The translations under genes were made by a program, and so were the position numbers. The notes below the pieces were generated by a model, which ran no database searches, was not told where the DNA came from, and was given only the letters and a program-made list of their open reading frames with translations. Positions 36,422 to 43,099 of a DNA stretch of 50,144 bases are shown piece by piece. Numbering within the stretch: position 1 is the first letter of the stretch; every line of letters begins with the position of its first letter. Source of the stretch: Cyanobium sp. C1_MAG_00004 (GTDB lineage: Bacteria; Cyanobacteriota; Cyanobacteriia; PCC-6307; Cyanobiaceae); assembly GCA_027486935.1 (NCBI GenBank), contig JAIXOF010000123.1:1-50144 (forward strand). Direction: 5' to 3'.

Positions 36422-36691
36422 TCAGCCTACACACTTGAAACTACAAATGATCTTGTCGGATGGCTTTGCTGGGTACTTTACACCTCCAGAAACCTCCTCT
36501 AACTCCTCATCGCTCAGATCCAGAGCTTGCTTTGCTGTATAGCTCTGCCAATCCTGAATGCTGATATCAAAACGAGCCCCCTGAGCAAGCATCGCTGCTT
36601 CCTCGAGCTCTTCAGCGTCATGAAAATGTGCCCTAAGGCGCGAATCAACTTTGAGCTTGGCAAGCAGGGCTGAAAGTTGTGCTTTCGACAT
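36422..36691 (-). CDS. RiPP precursor with Nif11-type leader, two-Cys core (copy A)
   Basis: 89 residues. The leader (MSKAQLSALLAKLKVDSRL... to LSDEELEEVSGG) belongs to the Nif11-like leader family and ends in the double Gly where the leader is removed. The predicted core is VKYPAKPSDKIICSFKCVG, 19 residues with Ser8, Ser14, Cys13 and Cys17, which could hold one or two thioether rings. The leader is the most divergent of the set (DISIQDWQSYTAKQALDLS). Expected to be modified by a LanM-type enzyme and exported; neither enzyme is in the window. AGCGCTACTCAGAAG upstream (36745-36759) is shared with copy D. Confidence 0.87.
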   Translation of the reverse strand: MSKAQLSALLAKLKVDSRLRAHFHDAEELEEAAMLAQGARFDISIQDWQSYTAKQALDLSDEELEEVSGGVKYPAKPSDKIICSFKCVG

Positions 36692-37019
36692 GGTCCAGAC
36701 AGCAAATTACTTCCTAGCTCAGGGTGCCGCATCCGTCTGTCGCCAGCGCTACTCAGAAGAAACCGCCTTTACCCAGTGCAATGGCTGGACGACGTCCAAT
36801 CAGAACCGCCAGAATCTCCGCTTGACCGGCACTATCGAAGACCCCAAAGGCCATCACGCAAGGCATAATCAATACCAAGAATCGGGTGATTACCGCGTAA
36901 AGCTACAAACAAGAAATCACTGCAGATGCCGTAGTAGAGGATGAATCCGCAGAGCATTCAGGACAGGGGCATTTAAAACAGACGTACAATTGAAAAAATT
37001 TAAACACAAAAACACCGCC
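36692..37019. other. Upstream region of precursor copy A, repeated in copy D
   Basis: 328 bases with no gene seen. The part 36741-36838 aligns with 42349-42445 upstream of precursor D, including an exact 15-base match AGCGCTACTCAGAAG and further matches ATCTCCG and GGCAC. The rest is AT-rich and anonymous. It probably contains the copy A promoter. Confidence 0.5.
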
Positions 37020-37230
37020 TTATCTATGATCTACATGACATTGATCAGCCCATGTAAATGCACCCCCAGCAACTGCCTCCAGCTCCTCATTACAGAGCTC
37101 TACCGGTTGCTTGGATTGCTACCTGAGCCAATCCGCCTTGCTGACAGCAAAGCCGTCTTGCTTTGCCATTACAACGGCGGTATCCAGCTCTGCAGCAGCC
37201 GTGACCTTCTCCAGAAGACCCTGTGGTTCC
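37020..37230 (-). pseudogene. Decayed RiPP precursor, N-terminus lost and one internal stop (copy F)
   Basis: The minus strand reads LLEKVTAAAELDTAVVMAKQ, DGFAVSKADWLR, stop (TAG, 37119-37121), QSKQPVELCNEELEAVAGG and then AFTWADQCHVDHR with a TAA at 37020-37022. The frame is kept throughout, so the nonsense codon is the main lesion in the remaining part, where family members have YQAKQ. The first 15 or so leader residues are absent: upstream sequence no longer matches and merges into the 3' end of the DUF6880 gene. One Cys and one Thr in the core. Confidence 0.8.
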
Positions 37231-37245
37231 CCGTTTCAGACAAGA

Positions 37246-38586
37246 TCAGCGTTCCAACAGCTGCCAGAAGCTCATGTTACGGCCGAATCTCTCTCGTATT
37301 CGGCCAATGAAACTCGACTGGCTCTCCAGACCTTGCCAGTCATCGATTTGCGCAGCCAGCCTTTCGCAGGTCTGCAGGTGGTCGGCCGCGTAGCGATAGC
37401 GTCTGGTTCGACTGCTTGAAAGGGCAAACACCACCATTGATCGCAGCAGGATGGTGGCGGCCAGTGGATGGCTGCTGCTGAGTCGATCAGCCGCAGGTGA
37501 GAGCACGTCGAAGGCTTCGCCATCCCAATGGGAGGCATTGTTGAGCACATAACGCCCCGCGCGCGCTAGTGCGGGCCAATGAATCAGGAAATCCAGGGCA
37601 AGCAGCGGTTGCGGATGCTGATCGGCGAACTGGAAAGCACGTTCCTCGGCAACAACATCGTCGAAATCATCTAGCCGGTTCAGATAGTCGCGCAGATGGG
37701 GGATCGAGAGGCTGTGGCAGAACAGCTCCCAGCGTTGCTGTTGGGCTTCTTCATGCCGAGCAAGGGCATCAAGCACCGCAATGCGTGCATCGCTCCATTC
37801 GGTTGCCAGCCAGTCGATGACGTTGGCAGCGGCTCCATCTAGCACTGCCAGAGCCTGCTCGGCGCGGCCCGCCTCAAGCAGATGCAAGGCCACATCAGCG
37901 GCGACCGCCGGTCGGCTGAGCTGTTTGGAATCGAACTGAGCCACATAGGCGTCAACATCACCCTGCGCCTCCGCGATTTGCAGCAGGGCATAGCTCGCAT
38001 CGGGGCCCCCCTGTTCTTTGAAATGGTGCTGCAGCACTGTCAACCCCTGCTCGCCCAGGGCTGGGGCGACCGAGGGAATTAGGTCGTCAAACTGACCGTA
38101 TCCATTGCCCGCAATCAGCTCGGCCATCTGCCCTGCCAGGGCCTCGGGCTTGATTGCTGCTGCTGTGGCCAGCTCAGCCAAGTCACCTTGGGCCTGTTTG
38201 AAAACGCCGATCACCGACCCGGTGGTGTCGGAACTGCGTTCGAGCACCCCGTCGGCCAGTTCGAGAAACCGCACCAACAGTCGGAAGGCCTGGTGAGGAT
38301 CGGCTTCTGCAATCGGGCCGGTGATCGCCTGATGCTGGGCCTCGAGATCAGCCAGCAGAGCCTTGCGTTTGCGCGAGTCCACAAAGGTGGTGGCCCGCGC
38401 GATCGCTGTGATCCGTTTGCGCACCTCCTGCAAAGCACTCTCGACGCCCTCGGCGACGGCTAAGGCCAACCGAAGCCGACGTTGAATTACGGCGTTGCCA
38501 CTGCTGACCTCCATCAGAAGCTCGGCTAGGGCAGAGGCGCCAAGGGCTTCCAAATTCCTGGCATTGAGGGTGCGTTTGCTGGCCAT
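37246..38586 (-). CDS. DUF6880 family protein
   Basis: 446 residues, all helical, beginning MASKRTLNARNLEALGASALAELL, the signature N-terminus of DUF6880. TPR-like helical pairs follow (ASYALLQIAEAQGDVDAYVAQFD, LHLLEAGRAEQALAVLDG). Ends RFGRNMSFWQLLER. Family function is unknown; it is found scattered in bacterial accessory regions. GC is nearer to the core genome than its immediate flanks, so it may have a separate origin from the precursors. No operon partner. Confidence 0.8.
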   Translation of the reverse strand: MASKRTLNARNLEALGASALAELLMEVSSGNAVIQRRLRLALAVAEGVESALQEVRKRITAIARATTFVDSRKRKALLADLEAQHQAITGPIAEADPHQAFRLLVRFLELADGVLERSSDTTGSVIGVFKQAQGDLAELATAAAIKPEALAGQMAELIAGNGYGQFDDLIPSVAPALGEQGLTVLQHHFKEQGGPDASYALLQIAEAQGDVDAYVAQFDSKQLSRPAVAADVALHLLEAGRAEQALAVLDGAAANVIDWLATEWSDARIAVLDALARHEEAQQQRWELFCHSLSIPHLRDYLNRLDDFDDVVAEERAFQFADQHPQPLLALDFLIHWPALARAGRYVLNNASHWDGEAFDVLSPAADRLSSSHPLAATILLRSMVVFALSSSRTRRYRYAADHLQTCERLAAQIDDWQGLESQSSFIGRIRERFGRNMSFWQLLER

Positions 38587-38885
38587 CGCAGCATTTAAAT
38601 GCCGGCCCTCTCCATGTGTGCCGGAATTTGAATGCTGGTCCAGGCTTGTACTGAGGCATTGGCCCGCGATCCAGCAACGCTGGCCTGGCTAAACGGGCAC
38701 GGACACACCTTGATCGCCGTGCTCAACGAGAGTGCAGGAGCCAGCGCAGCAGCGGTCATTGAGATCCTGTGCCCGATGCGGGATCACGACCTGGTGTCCA
38801 AGGCTCTGGAAGCAAAAAACTGCCAACTCAGAGGCCAAGGAGCGTTTAGCGCTCACCGTCAGCTGGGTAGGGGTCTGCCCCTACG
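38587..38885. other. No convincing gene
   Basis: About 300 bases with a plus-strand open frame from 38632 (MLVQACTEALARDPATLAWL) that has coding-like composition for its first 60 codons and then degrades. It may be the remnant of a helical-repeat gene. Not called as a gene. Confidence 0.3.
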
Positions 38886-39317
38886 TCAAAGCAAGCAGAA
38901 ATGACGGTGAACCCCAGCAACCGAGGTCCAACCCATTGAAGAAGCGCTGAAGCCCCAGTACCCAAACGTCCCATCGCTGATGTCGCTCTGCACGGCGCCG
39001 CAGTCGCAGGCCACCCGCCAAAGGGCCTTGTGGATCGGTGAGGACTCGTAGCGCACCAACTCTGGCAAGCGCTGCCTAAGCAGGGAATTGCCGCGCCAGG
39101 CGTTGAAGTGCGGGATGCGTGAGTTGAGGTGATGGCATACGTGGGTAGAGCCTACGCCGTGGTGCAGCAGGTTGAGCAGCGAGCCATAGGGGCAATCCAC
39201 CGTTTGCATCGCACCTTTGGCCCAGGTCCACTCGGCGGTGGAATAGTAGGGAATGGCCACATCGGTGTGCTGAAGCCTGGGCCAGGAGTTACCCCAATTC
39301 GGACTCGATCGGCCCAT
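38886..39317 (-). pseudogene. 5'-truncated fatty acid desaturase (C-terminal third only)
   Basis: The surviving frame matches the end of DesA/DesB-type acyl-lipid desaturases: LQHTDVAIPYYSTAEWTWAKG, TVDCPYGSLLNLLHHGVGS, THVCHHLNSRIPHFNAW with the third histidine box HVCHH, and PIHKALWRVACDCGAVQSD. The first two histidine boxes and the membrane segments should lie upstream but the region 39317-39368 is unrelated, so two thirds of the gene are missing. No frameshift is needed within the remnant. Without histidine boxes 1 and 2 it cannot hold the di-iron centre, so it is not functional. Confidence 0.8.
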
Positions 39318-39368
39318 GGCTGGGAGCCGGCGAAGCCTTTTGGCAAGGCCAAACCTCCGGCACGCCCT

Positions 39369-40514
39369 TCAGAGTGCAGAGCGAATCACGAGCAACACAA
39401 TCAGTGAAATGAAGACAAAAGTGCTTATGCCTGCCATGCGTTGCTCTAGACGTTGGATGGCGGCAGCATCGCCGTGTTTCTGAAAGCATCGCCATGCAAT
39501 CACCCCAGAACTAGTCGCCACCATGATGTAGAGCAATACAGCAATATGTACAGCATCAATCAACGTGGCGTAACCAGCTGCCCCCAGTTCATTGGCAGAG
39601 CTGCGCAAGCTGATCACGGCTGCAAAAGCAGAACCTGCTAGTAGGCCAAAGCGGGGGCTGAGTGCACTGGGATGATCAACCCGTAGCCCAAACGAAGCCA
39701 GGGCGATGAGCGAGGCTGCGAAGGCTCCCATCGTGAGTTTCCAGAAGCCCGTCTGATCGATGCGTTGTAGCAGGATCTGCAGTTCGACCTTTGCGTAGCT
39801 GCTGGCGCTGCCAGGTGGAAGACGTGGGTCGCCGAAGGTGGTGCGGTATGTCTTAGTGCCGCTTACCAAGCGAGTGGAGTGAATCCTCCAGCCACTGAGA
39901 TTGATATCCCGATCGAAGCTGGAATTGCTCGCGTCGGCTGCAAACAAGATTGACTGGCTGTCTTTCTCAGCTTCCTCCAACTCGATACGCAGGAGCTGTT
40001 GATCGAATGGAAAACGCCTTACATCCCATCCATGACGGAAGCTGCCTACGATCTTGCGCTGTTGCCAAACTCCTGAAGCTGTTGCTTCCGAAATGGCATT
40101 GGGACTCTCGATTTTGATCGCATTGGGGAACTCCAGACGATCAAGGGGGGAACCCGCTTCCTGATTACTGATTGACCACAGCCAGAATGATGCAGAGAAA
40201 CTTTTCTTAGATGGGTCAAGATCGCTAAGACCTGTCAGAAATGCGCCTATCCGCACAGTTTCTGGCGAAGCTGCTGCAGCCTGGACAGGCTGTAGACCAA
40301 CCATGCTGATCAGAAGCCCCAGGGCCAACGCCAGCAACGCTCGACTCCAGGAAGCTAAACCAGTCCTGGTGGGATGAGGATCTGACACAGCGTCAGGATT
40401 CGGATTTTCAGACTTTAACTTTTTAACACCAGTATGGCCTTCTGAACCAGTCCGACATAAGCCATGAGATTCCTCTTCAGATCGGCCGGACCCGCCGCAG
40501 TGGTGAGACAACAT
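39369..40514 (-). CDS. Pentameric ligand-gated ion channel homologue (Cys-loop receptor fold)
   Basis: Up to 381 residues. An N-terminal hydrophobic signal (ALLALALGLLISMVGL) precedes an extracellular ligand-binding beta-sandwich: ETVRIGAFLTGLSDLDPSKK, FSASFWLWSI, then WDVRRFPFDQQLLRIELEE, the FPFDxQxL block diagnostic of these receptors, and NLSGWRIHSTRLVSG. Four membrane segments follow (about 255-275, 287-309, 316-338 and 358-380), as in bacterial GLIC/ELIC. The Cys-loop cysteines are absent, as in most bacterial members. The start is uncertain: ATG 40514 gives a 50-residue lead before the signal; GTG 40388 is shorter. Ion selectivity and ligand are unknown. Confidence 0.78.
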   Translation of the reverse strand: MLSHHCGGSGRSEEESHGLCRTGSEGHTGVKKLKSENPNPDAVSDPHPTRTGLASWSRALLALALGLLISMVGLQPVQAAAASPETVRIGAFLTGLSDLDPSKKSFSASFWLWSISNQEAGSPLDRLEFPNAIKIESPNAISEATASGVWQQRKIVGSFRHGWDVRRFPFDQQLLRIELEEAEKDSQSILFAADASNSSFDRDINLSGWRIHSTRLVSGTKTYRTTFGDPRLPPGSASSYAKVELQILLQRIDQTGFWKLTMGAFAASLIALASFGLRVDHPSALSPRFGLLAGSAFAAVISLRSSANELGAAGYATLIDAVHIAVLLYIMVATSSGVIAWRCFQKHGDAAAIQRLEQRMAGISTFVFISLIVLLVIRSAL

Positions 40515-40883
40515 AGCCCTCAGTCCAATAGGCGCCTGAGGGTCGTTGGACGCGGATCTTGGCTTGCCGCTCCATTGTCATGGCTGCACGGGGGATGCTG
40601 CGTCAAGGGTGCTGGAGGTCGCCAGCTGGCCGCAGCAGCCTTACACGGGCGGCAGGCCGCGAAGCTGGCGATCTGCATCGCGTTGGCCGTCGATGGCGAA
40701 TGATGCACCTGCAAACATTTAGAAGCAATCGCAATTGCACGTTTTTTACTAATATTCGCTGGCATCTTGGGGCCAAGGAAGTGATTGAAGAAATAAAAAG
40801 CCGCTGCTGCAACAGGGGCTTTTTGTGGTCAAAGTTACTCCTGCCTGAGAGTGCACCAAGAGAGAGGTATCGACCAAAAGGTC
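40515..40883. other. Spacer between channel gene and precursor pseudogene B
   Basis: 369 bases, no gene seen. It holds the precursor-type terminator at 40785-40826 and the upstream region of the channel gene. AT-rich around 40740-40800. Confidence 0.5.
40785..40826 (-). terminator. Precursor-cassette terminator T1
   Basis: On the minus strand, AAAGCCCCTGTTGCAGCAGC forms an imperfect hairpin with GCGGCTTTTT and is followed by TATTTCTTCAATCACTTCC. It lies about 58 bases past the end of precursor B and shares its TTTTTATTTCTTCAAT tail with T3 and T4. Confidence 0.75.
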
Positions 40884-41162
40884 TTAGCACGCAGTGCAAA
40901 AAGACATAGGATCACAATCTTTTCTGGTTAAACAAGCAGGACCAGTACCTTTCCCCCCAGCAACCCCCTCCAGTTCCCCATCACTCAGTTGACGGGTCAG
41001 CTTGGCTTGACACCTGAGCCAATCCACCTTGCTCACATCAAATCAAGCTTCCTTGGCGATCGCCACGGCGGCGTCAAAGCCTGCAGCACCCTTGAGCTTT
41101 TCGTAAAGCCCAGCATCGTCGTTGAGCTTCGCAAGCAGGGCTGTTAATTGATCTTCGGACAT
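40884..41162 (-). pseudogene. RiPP precursor with one leader nonsense codon, four-Cys core (copy B)
   Basis: ATG 41162 starts MSEDQLTALLAKLNDDAGLY; codon 40 is TGA (41043-41045), where relatives have Gly (GGx), then FDVSKVDWLRCQAKLTRQLS and DGELEGVAGG follow in the same frame. The core after the double Gly is 22 residues, starting KGTGPACLTRKDC and ending DPMSFCTAC before the TAA at 40884-40886, with four Cys and four Ser/Thr. A single G-to-T change explains the stop, so inactivation looks very recent; a sequencing error cannot be excluded. It has its own terminator (T1). Confidence 0.85.
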
Positions 41163-41520
41163 GGATTAACAGCAGCGATGCCTCAGTTTTGGCCCAAAAC
41201 GGTGCTGCTATTATCCGCCGACCCAGAATGCCAAATTGTCCCAAGCCTGCCGAAGCAAAGGCTCCGCTCACCCAGGGGCGGCGTTGAGTGCCAAGGGATG
41301 CGGCGCAGATCGAGTAGAAGGGGCTGCAGAAAGCAGGGTGGCCAAGGGTGTCGGCGGAGTGGTGACTCTAAAGTCTGTACATTAATCGCGCTTGACGCTT
41401 GTATAACCATTAGAGAAGTGGACTCAAAAGTGCCATGAATCGGACTTTTTTGAGGCGCTCTGGGTTTGATTGATGAAACAAAAGCCCCGTGAGTATCAGG
41501 GGCCATTGATTCGGTAGGGT
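41163..41520. other. Spacer between precursors C and B
   Basis: 358 bases without a gene. It carries terminator T2 (41480-41503) and CCATTAGAGAAG (41407-41418), which is exactly repeated at 42480-42491 upstream of copy D and may belong to a promoter region. The sequence just upstream of copy B does not match the C/D/E upstream block. Confidence 0.5.
41480..41503 (-). terminator. Precursor-cassette terminator T2
   Basis: Minus-strand GGCCCCTG-ATACTCA-CGGGGC then TTTTGTTTC: a stem with T-rich tail, 17 bases past the end of precursor C. Confidence 0.75.
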
Positions 41521-41796
41521 TTAGTCGCAGTAGTCGGCAGTCCTATTGATGCAAGACAGTGGTGTGCCGATCACCCAGCCGACAGTGCCACCAGCAGCCG
41601 CATCCAAATCCGCATCACTCAATTCAAGAATTTGCTTCGCTTGAAACCTGAGCCAATCCGCCTTGCTGACAGCAAAGCCGGCTTCCATTGCAATTGCAAC
41701 GGCTGTTTCCAGATCTCCAGCAACCTTGAGCTTCTTCTGTAGCTCCGTGTCGTCTTTGACGGCTGCGAGGAAGGCTGAAAGTTGTTCTTCGGACAT
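41521..41796 (-). CDS. RiPP precursor with Nif11-type leader, two-Cys core (copy C)
   Basis: 91 residues. Leader MSEEQLSAFLAAVKDDTELQ ... FAVSKADWLRFQAKQILELS ... DADLDAAAGG; here the usual ELEGV before Gly-Gly is replaced by DLDAA. The core of 21 residues begins TVGWVIGTPLSCINRTADYC and ends with D, with Thr1, Thr8, Ser11, Thr16, Cys12 and Cys20. A Ser-Cys adjacent pair at 11-12 and a distant Cys20 could allow one small and one larger ring. Own terminator T2, and a 68-base upstream block shared with copies D and E. Confidence 0.9.
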   Translation of the reverse strand: MSEEQLSAFLAAVKDDTELQKKLKVAGDLETAVAIAMEAGFAVSKADWLRFQAKQILELSDADLDAAAGGTVGWVIGTPLSCINRTADYCD

Positions 41797-41864
41797 CGGC
41801 CTAGACGGCAGACAACGACCAAGTCATAGCCTAAGACGCCGCTGCTGTCAGCCATGGGGGCAAC
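41797..41864. repeat. Upstream repeat block, copy next to precursor C
   Basis: Plus strand begins CGGCCTAGACGGCAGACAAC and ends near the ATGGGGGCAACCC stretch. The same block, about 90% identical by eye, lies at 42296-42350 (copy D) and 42880-42948 (copy E). It directly abuts each start codon, so it is the 5' leader/promoter-proximal region copied with the gene. Confidence 0.8.
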
Positions 41865-41900
41865 CCCAGGATGGTTGTTTTTGGGTGAGGAAGTGATTGA

Positions 41901-41929
41901 AGAAATAAAAAGCCCCTGCGCAAGGGCTT
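41901..41929 (-). terminator. Precursor-cassette terminator T3
   Basis: Minus-strand AAGCCCTTGCGCAGGGGCTT followed by TTTATTTCTTCAATCACTTCC, about 75 bases past the end of precursor D. The tail is identical to that of T1. Confidence 0.85.
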
Positions 41930-42004
41930 ATGTATGGGTGGAATGAGGGGGTACCGCCGTGATAGGACAGCTCCACCACGATCCAACTGTGATGGGGATG
42001 AGTG

Positions 42005-42295
42005 TTAACACATATCGATAATATCACTGCAACTCTGGCAAGTCTGCCGACAGCTCCAAGCCGCTGGATCACTCGAATCTGCTTTCCCACCAGCAACCCC
42101 CTCCAGCTGAGCATCGCTTAGCTGGAGGGTCTCCTTTGCCTGATACTTAAGCCAATCCGCTTTACTCACGTCAAACCCGCCTTCCTTCGCAATCGTCACA
42201 GCGGCATCAAGGTCTGCAGCACCCTTGAGCTTCTCCAGAAGCCCGGCATCCTCCTTGAGCTTGGCAAGCAGGGCTGAGAGTTGTTCCTCAGACAC
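42005..42295 (-). CDS. RiPP precursor with Nif11-type leader, four-Cys core (copy D)
   Basis: 96 residues from a GTG start (siblings use ATG at the same position). Leader: MSEEQLSALLAKLKEDAGLL, DVSKADWLKYQAKETLQLSD, AQLEGVAGG. The core is 26 residues, starting KADSSDPAAWSCRQTCQSC and ending SDIIDMC: Cys at 12, 16, 19 and 26, with Ser4, Ser5, Ser11, Thr15, Ser18 and Ser20. It is the longest and most ring-capable core of the intact set. Upstream it has both repeat blocks (the C/E block and the block shared with copy A). Terminator T3 follows. Confidence 0.9.
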   Translation of the reverse strand: MSEEQLSALLAKLKEDAGLLEKLKGAADLDAAVTIAKEGGFDVSKADWLKYQAKETLQLSDAQLEGVAGGKADSSDPAAWSCRQTCQSCSDIIDMC

Positions 42296-42612
42296 GGCCT
42301 AGACGGCAGACAACGCCCAATTCATAGCCCAAGACGCCGCTGCTGTCAGCCGCAAGCGCTACTCAGAAGCCCCGACTTCACCTAATGCAACGGTTAGATG
42401 CCCCATTAAGGCAAGCGAGGATCTCCGTTTTGCTGGCACGATGGTATCCCGTACAGGCCATCATAGAGACGGGTAATAGCCATTAGAGAAGACGGCAAAT
42501 GTTGCCAAGTATTGGTGGCTGATTTATGGGCGCTGGCGGGTTATTGAAGAAATAAAAAGCCCCTGTGGTGGCAGGGGCTTGGGGGTTATATGGTACAAAA
42601 CTGCTACTTAAA
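42296..42612. repeat. Upstream region of precursor D: two repeat blocks
   Basis: 42296-42350 matches the blocks before copies C and E; 42349-42445 matches the block before copy A (36741-36838), including AGCGCTACTCAGAAG at 42355-42369. CCATTAGAGAAG at 42480-42491 recurs at 41407-41418. So the region is a mosaic of segments seen at other precursors. Terminator T4 lies at 42557-42580. No gene seen. Confidence 0.75.
42557..42580 (-). terminator. Precursor-cassette terminator T4
   Basis: Minus-strand AAGCCCCTG-CCACCA-CAGGGGCTT with TTTATTTCTTCAAT following; perfect 9-bp stem, 33 bases past precursor E. Confidence 0.88.
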
Positions 42613-42879
42613 CTAATTACAATAAAATAATCTATAATCGTACTCAGTTTTTTTAATCTCACCGGCCGTCCCTCCAGCAACCCCCTCCAGCTCCTCATCG
42701 CTCAACTGCAAGGTCTGCTTGGCTTGATACCTCAGCCAATCCGCCTTGCTCACATCAAACCCAGCATCCTTCGCTATCGCCAAGAGGGCATCAAGGTCTG
42801 CAGCACCCTTGAGTTTCTCCTGAAGCCCCGCATCCTCCTTGACGGCTGCGAGGAAGGCTGAGAGTTGTTCCTCTGACAT
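42613..42879 (-). CDS. RiPP precursor with Nif11-type leader, single-Cys core (copy E)
   Basis: 88 residues. Leader MSEEQLSAFLAAVKEDAGLQ ... GFDVSKADWLRYQAKQTLQL ... SDEELEGVAGG, closest of all to the canonical prochlorosin leader end. The core TAGEIKKTEYDYRLFYCN has only one Cys (position 17) and two Thr (1 and 8), so at most one thioether ring. The tail has four aromatic residues (three Tyr and one Phe). First gene of the run C-D-E on the minus strand. Upstream block of 68 bases shared with copies C and D. Confidence 0.88.
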   Translation of the reverse strand: MSEEQLSAFLAAVKEDAGLQEKLKGAADLDALLAIAKDAGFDVSKADWLRYQAKQTLQLSDEELEGVAGGTAGEIKKTEYDYRLFYCN

Positions 42880-43099
42880 GGCCTAGACGGCAGACAGCGC
42901 CCAAGTCATAGCCCAAGACGCCGCTGCCGTCAGCCATGGGGGCTACCCCGCCCTCTGCCAGGATGTGGGCCATAGTGTGCGACATGCCGCGGCCGTCGTA
43001 ATCGGCCCTCTGCTCAAGCGTTGGAAACGAAGGGCGACTCCCTTACACAGAGGGGACCTGTGGCACTCAGCTCATCCGAAGCTGAGCCAATGTCGCATC
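42880..43099. repeat. Upstream repeat block of precursor E and spacer
   Basis: 42880-42948 is the third copy of the C/D/E upstream block (ends near ATGGGGGCTACCCC). The remaining 150 bases to the PEP-CTERM-like gene are GC-richer and show no gene. Confidence 0.65.

Follow-up and report, generated by a model that had tools for sequence, protein, structure and literature searches.

Nif11-leader precursor genes in a Cyanobium genome: candidate cassettes of a probable prochlorosin-type lanthipeptide system

Prochlorosins (precursors ProcA, synthetase ProcM; Prochlorococcus MIT9313) and synechococsins (SyncA, SyncM; marine Synechococcus) are made from precursors with a Nif11 leader that finishes in D/EELExxxGG. 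They also combine hypervariable Cys/Ser/Thr cores, many precursors per LanM synthetase, a CCG zinc motif in that enzyme, precursors scattered away from lanM and a C39/TolC/HlyD exporter (PMC10783134). The LahA/LahT system of Lachnospiraceae C6A11 likewise pairs several Nif11-leader precursors of diverse cores with one C39 transporter (PMC6363468), but its host is another one and its cluster is compact, whereas the precursors described here are dispersed. Here we analyse a family of Nif11-leader genes lying between positions 36,422 and 42,879 of a 50,144-nucleotide stretch from Cyanobium sp. C1_MAG_00004 (the window, which is the whole of contig C75), together with the rest of that genome (2.98 Mb, 99.8% complete, 38 Nif11 matches). 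All features just listed for prochlorosins and synechococsins recur in it, and we think it very probable that the window genes are precursors of a prochlorosin-type class II lanthipeptide system.

Precursor genes, synthetase and exporter

An initial annotation of the window had described four intact genes with a constant leader and unrelated cores, comparable to prochlorosins. The four open reading frames stand on the minus strand where it placed them, and its core lengths and Cys counts are correct. The set it gave was incomplete, as two decayed copies lie among the intact ones.

42613-42879, minus strand: intact Nif11-leader precursor, 88 amino acids (aa); leader end ELEGVAGG; core TAGEIKKTEYDYRLFYCN, 18 aa with 1 Cys and 2 Thr; TIGR03798 E = 9.7e-23
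42005-42295, minus strand: intact precursor with GTG start, 96 aa; core KADSSDPAAWSCRQTCQSCSDIIDMC, 26 aa with 4 Cys and 6 Ser/Thr; TIGR03798 E = 1.1e-18
41521-41796, minus strand: intact precursor, 91 aa; leader end DLDAAAGG; core TVGWVIGTPLSCINRTADYCD, 21 aa with 2 Cys and 4 Ser/Thr; TIGR03798 E = 1e-19
40884-41162, minus strand: decayed precursor with complete leader, full-length frame interrupted by one in-frame TGA, no conserved promoter; core KGTGPACLTRKDCDPMSFCTAC
about 37026-37271, minus strand: fossil leader interrupted by TGA and TAG stops; it runs into a DUF6880 gene at that gene's 3' end
36422-36691, minus strand: diverged intact precursor, 89 aa; core VKYPAKPSDKIICSFKCVG, 19 aa with 2 Cys and 2 Ser; TIGR03798 E = 2.2e-15

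All four intact precursors exceed the cut-off of TIGR03798, leader_Nif11 (E 2e-15 to 1e-22), and in each of them Gly-Gly occupies residues 69-70. The VSKADWL motif is missing from 36422-36691, whose leader begins MSKAQLSALLAKLK, reads ISIQDWQ at that place and ends ELEEVSGG. C39 proteases recognise a leader end L(-12)xxxE(-8)L(-7)...GG (PMC6363468); 42613-42879 and 36422-36691 match it in full, and 41521-41796 and 42005-42295 carry D or Q at -8. Taking residues after position 70 as core and the preceding 70 as leader, Cys accounts for 9 of 84 core residues and for 0 of 280 leader residues in the window (Fisher p = 1.3e-6). With its single Cys, the core of 42613-42879 can form at most one ring; ring topology, which the initial annotation expected to be new, is not readable from the sequence of the window cores. 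Complete dehydration of Ser/Thr would lower the calculated core [M+H]+ from 2083.11 to 2047.09 in 36422-36691 (two waters lost), from 2284.07 to 2212.03 in 41521-41796 (four), from 2821.14 to 2713.07 in 42005-42295 (six) and from 2214.05 to 2178.03 in 42613-42879 (two).

The same contrast holds across the genome, which has about 19 intact precursors with a Gly-Gly-type end. In these 19 genes Cys makes up 11.6% of core versus 0.2% of leader residues and Ser plus Thr 17.3% versus 8.4%, and the cores are unrelated to one another, their pairwise scores equalling those of shuffled sequence. Leader DNA of 14 VSKADW-type copies (one more distant gene included) is 78% identical on average, and the median ratio of nonsynonymous to synonymous substitution (dN/dS) is 0.13, which indicates purifying selection on the leader protein. 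About four more copies outside the window carry stops or truncations.

Our search of the genome for a LanM returned exactly one, of ProcM type (contig C70, 1125 aa, TIGR03897 E = 1e-215); PF13575 and PF05147 each have one match genome-wide, both within this reading frame. Motifs KPKDM, CHYEN, LIDTET, WCHGAPG and LCCG are kept and are identical in type to those of the Prochlorococcus MIT 0701 and marine Synechococcus homologues. WCHGAPG and LCCG also occur in the aligned full-length LanM homologues, in keeping with the CCG (three-Cys) zinc site that marks the ProcM clade; the CCG-type motif has been tied to promiscuous ProcM-like enzymes (PMC10783134). Contig C70 (12.9 kb) carries six Nif11 matches in addition to lanM, of which three are intact precursors, two are damaged copies and one is a further Nif11 protein.

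A single C39 peptidase-exporter with catalytic residues was found as well (contig C230, PF03412 E = 7e-32, ECGAA and the catalytic His), next to HlyD and a TolC-type protein, the latter assigned from sequence and not by family search. In a congener (G001) a 71% identical orthologue of the exporter is directly followed by four precursors of the same family, so that gene neighbourhood connects the exporter with its substrates. A second C39 match (C219) was rejected as exporter, being part of a large type I secretion ATPase without the catalytic Cys motif. Beside the exporter gene we also noticed two Nif11-like proteins, each about 200 aa long (L036:9303-10447 on C230), whose N-terminal parts are long and whose C-termini after VTGG or VVGG are hydrophobic and free of Cys; they probably belong to another class of exported peptide.

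Precursor number and LanM go together in our sample of 81 family genomes, 5 with LanM and 76 without, in which matches to the 42613 precursor were counted. The LanM-positive genomes have 27, 8, 11, 30 and 0 matches and each LanM-negative genome at most 3, so that four or more matches are found in 4 of 5 versus 0 of 76 (Fisher p = 3e-6, uncorrected for relatedness; two pairs of the genomes are congeneric). Precursor expansion thus tracks LanM among these genomes. Together with the single ProcM-type LanM and the C39 exporter, this co-occurrence supports the prochlorosin-like arrangement proposed at the outset.

Anatomy of the cassettes

Three of the four intact window genes share flanking elements, all on the minus strand:

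42906-42933, minus strand: promoter-like element CTGACG-N17-TATGAC, 54 nucleotides (nt) before the ATG of 42613-42879
42543-42580, minus strand: putative cassette terminator of 42613-42879, stem AAGCCCCTGCCACCACAGGGGCTT followed by TTTATTTCTTCAAT
42322-42349, minus strand: promoter-like element CTGACA-N17-TATGAA, 54 nt ahead of the GTG start of 42005-42295
41896-41929, minus strand: putative cassette terminator of 42005-42295
41824-41851, minus strand: promoter-like element CTGACA-N17-TATGAC, 55 nt before the ATG of 41521-41796
41485-41501, minus strand: putative diverged terminator of 41521-41796, stem CCCTGATACTCACGGGG followed by CTTTTGTTT
40784-40821, minus strand: putative diverged terminator of the decayed precursor 40884-41162

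The pattern CTGACR-N17-TATGAM occurs three times in the 50-kb window, each time at one of these genes, against 0.06 matches expected. Similar elements precede 14 genes of VSKADW or related type in the genome and several more in congeners, mostly starting 52-60 nt before the start codon. Among 16 aligned copies CTGAC is invariant and the spacer sequence varies by subgroup; as the copies were chosen by CTGAC, it is the second hexamer and the constant distance between the two that count as independent signal. Position, spacing and conservation suggest promoter activity. A search reaching 300 nt from lanM and from the exporter genes found no such element, which leaves a shared regulon unsupported.

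Downstream of 11 precursor genes of the Cyanobium genome there is a GC stem and then CTTTTTATTT, in some cases slightly altered. Genome-wide we found three exact copies of the 19-mer CAGGGGCTTTTTATTTYTT, each just 3' of one of these precursors. In close pairwise alignments DNA identity drops at Gly-Gly or a few codons past it, and in the clearest pair, 42613-42879 and its relative on C189, it resumes at the terminator. The three window genes and many relatives are built as self-contained cassettes of promoter-like element, leader, hypervariable core and family-specific terminator, with the core alone unconserved. At 36422-36691 neither the common promoter nor the terminator was found.

It is possible, though we put it forward only tentatively, that the family serves as a library of evolvable cassettes, in which an unchanging frame of promoter-leader and terminator would hold a replaceable or scrambled core, and a new core would at once be transcribed, modified and exported by enzymes acting in trans. 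Duplication and decay occur side by side here, two decayed and four intact copies lying within the same 7 kb. Between the precursor genes lies a frame for a 381-aa protein (39369-40514, minus strand) that has several hydrophobic stretches and matches no Pfam family.

Weighing the explanations

In the prochlorosin-type reading, the Nif11 leader would recruit the single ProcM-clade LanM encoded on C70, which would dehydrate Ser/Thr and close thioether rings onto Cys in any core placed after Gly-Gly; the C39 peptidase-exporter of C230 with its HlyD and TolC partners would then cut after Gly-Gly and export the product. In the window, three of the intact genes, out of four, may act as independent transcription cassettes, their copies presumably spreading by duplication, perhaps with recombination, while the core diversifies and some copies decay. 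Several observations weigh against this account. The genes for LanM and the exporter sit on contigs other than that of the window, 36422-36691 is a diverged family member, and a generic sigma-70 scan called none of the promoter-like elements. One genome (G076) has LanM and zero precursor matches, several LanM-negative genomes have 1-3 matches, and a YcaO/SagB pair in the Cyanobium genome could act on some precursors.

This pair is the main alternative modifying machinery: on contig C182 (L102:6423-9711) one YcaO cyclodehydratase (TIGR03604, SagD family, with a fused TIGR03882 leader-binding domain) accompanies one SagB dehydrogenase (TIGR03605), and the two could put azol(in)es into some or all window precursors, in place of lanthionines or in addition to them. 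Indeed, syncA genes adjoin YcaO/SagB in Synechococcus KORDI-100 (PMC10783134). However, the 10.8 kb around the C182 pair hold no Nif11 precursor, which speaks against a thiazole/oxazole-modified microcin (TOMM) or linear azol(in)e-containing peptide (LAP) assignment, nor any other recognisable precursor for this TOMM-type pair, while LanM shares a contig with precursors and is tracked by their expansion; we regard azole formation on the window precursors as quite improbable. The genome also encodes 17 radical SAM proteins, none on C70, C75 or C230. Export of unmodified, linear Nif11 double-glycine bacteriocins seems highly improbable to us, given the strong enrichment of cores in Cys and Ser/Thr and the presence of a ProcM-type LanM, even though the exporter pair's best models are NHLM_micro_ABC1/ABC2 (scores under the curated cut-offs), it adjoins the two Nif11-like proteins with hydrophobic, Cys-free C-termini, and it could plausibly carry non-lanthipeptides.

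The window copies might also be remnants with little or no transcription that serve merely as recombination stock for active precursors elsewhere: two of the six are decayed, about four other genome copies are stopped or truncated, and the 36422 copy is without the common flanks. Four frames are nevertheless intact, the leader dN/dS is about 0.13, and promoter-like elements and terminators flank three of the four intact copies, which makes such a state improbable. As for how copies disperse, the title of a preprint associates precursor dispersal in marine strains with TnpAREP. No Y1_Tnp (PF01797) match was found in the Cyanobium genome, and searches of IMG/VR and of GenBank phages yielded no sequence related to the 42613 precursor; both TnpAREP-driven dispersal and phage carriage were therefore rejected.

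Relation to marine systems and significance

The best leader matches to genome G075, the holder of published prochlorosin cores, are 52-65% identical, and this leader comparison agrees with the kinship first suspected. We take four G075 cores (FFCVQGTANRFTINVC, TIGGTIVSITCETCDLLVGKMC, AACHNHAPSMPPSYWEGEC and GDTGIQAVLHTAGCYGGTKMCRA) to be the published prochlorosins 1.1, 1.7, 2.8 and 3.3, and on these cores we presume G075 to be MIT9313 or a near twin. The terminator stem AGCCCCTGCCACCGCAGGGGCTTTTT 3' of one G075 precursor closely matches that of the window. In contrast, the leader middle reads VSKADWLxxQAKQTL here and SITTEDL in prochlorosins and synechococsins, and the LanM is only about 45% identical to the prochlorosin synthetase (45% to the LanM of G075). 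Its nearest relatives (68-88% identical) belong to Cyanobium and Synechococcus metagenome-assembled genomes, several with lake-type names, the next being that of Prochlorococcus MIT 0701 (46%).

Kinship of cores was looked for and rejected, in line with the initial annotation, which saw no resemblance to known prochlorosins. Against 41 cores of two marine Prochlorococcus-type genomes (G075 and G034, the latter set possibly containing over-extended frames), one of five cores, that of 42613-42879, reached a nominal p of 0.01, unconvincing after five tests, and the remaining four gave p 0.51-0.97. Two further observations concern relatives of the enzyme: one congener genome bin has two ProcM-type LanM genes (G005:C26 and G005:C122), and the alphaproteobacterium Roseovarius lutimaris (L057:8001-11579) has a 43% identical LanM with the CCG motif and, nearby, a Nif11-like peptide ending ISLCKDCE. 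Outside this system, two Nif11 proteins of the Cyanobium genome (L006 and L026, on C109 and C48) lack Gly-Gly and end in -GEYN or -GEYPGRYY; they resemble the unexplained group F (Nif11 peptides ending -GEYH/N), which shares the Nif11 domain and has a conserved C-terminus without Gly-Gly and Cys (PMC10783134).

The identity of the leaders and cores and the flanks of the cassettes aside, all features that we tested have been described before in marine prochlorosins and synechococsins (PMC10783134). The present genes enlarge the prochlorosin repertoire beyond the marine strains surveyed there, and their LanM, which differs from its marine homologue at about 55% of positions, may be a further promiscuous catalyst. 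What prochlorosins do for the cell is still unknown (PMC10783134), and decay and duplication within 7 kb offer useful material for that question. Finally, the cassette anatomy would explain, in concrete and testable terms, how new substrates continue to reach a single enzyme.

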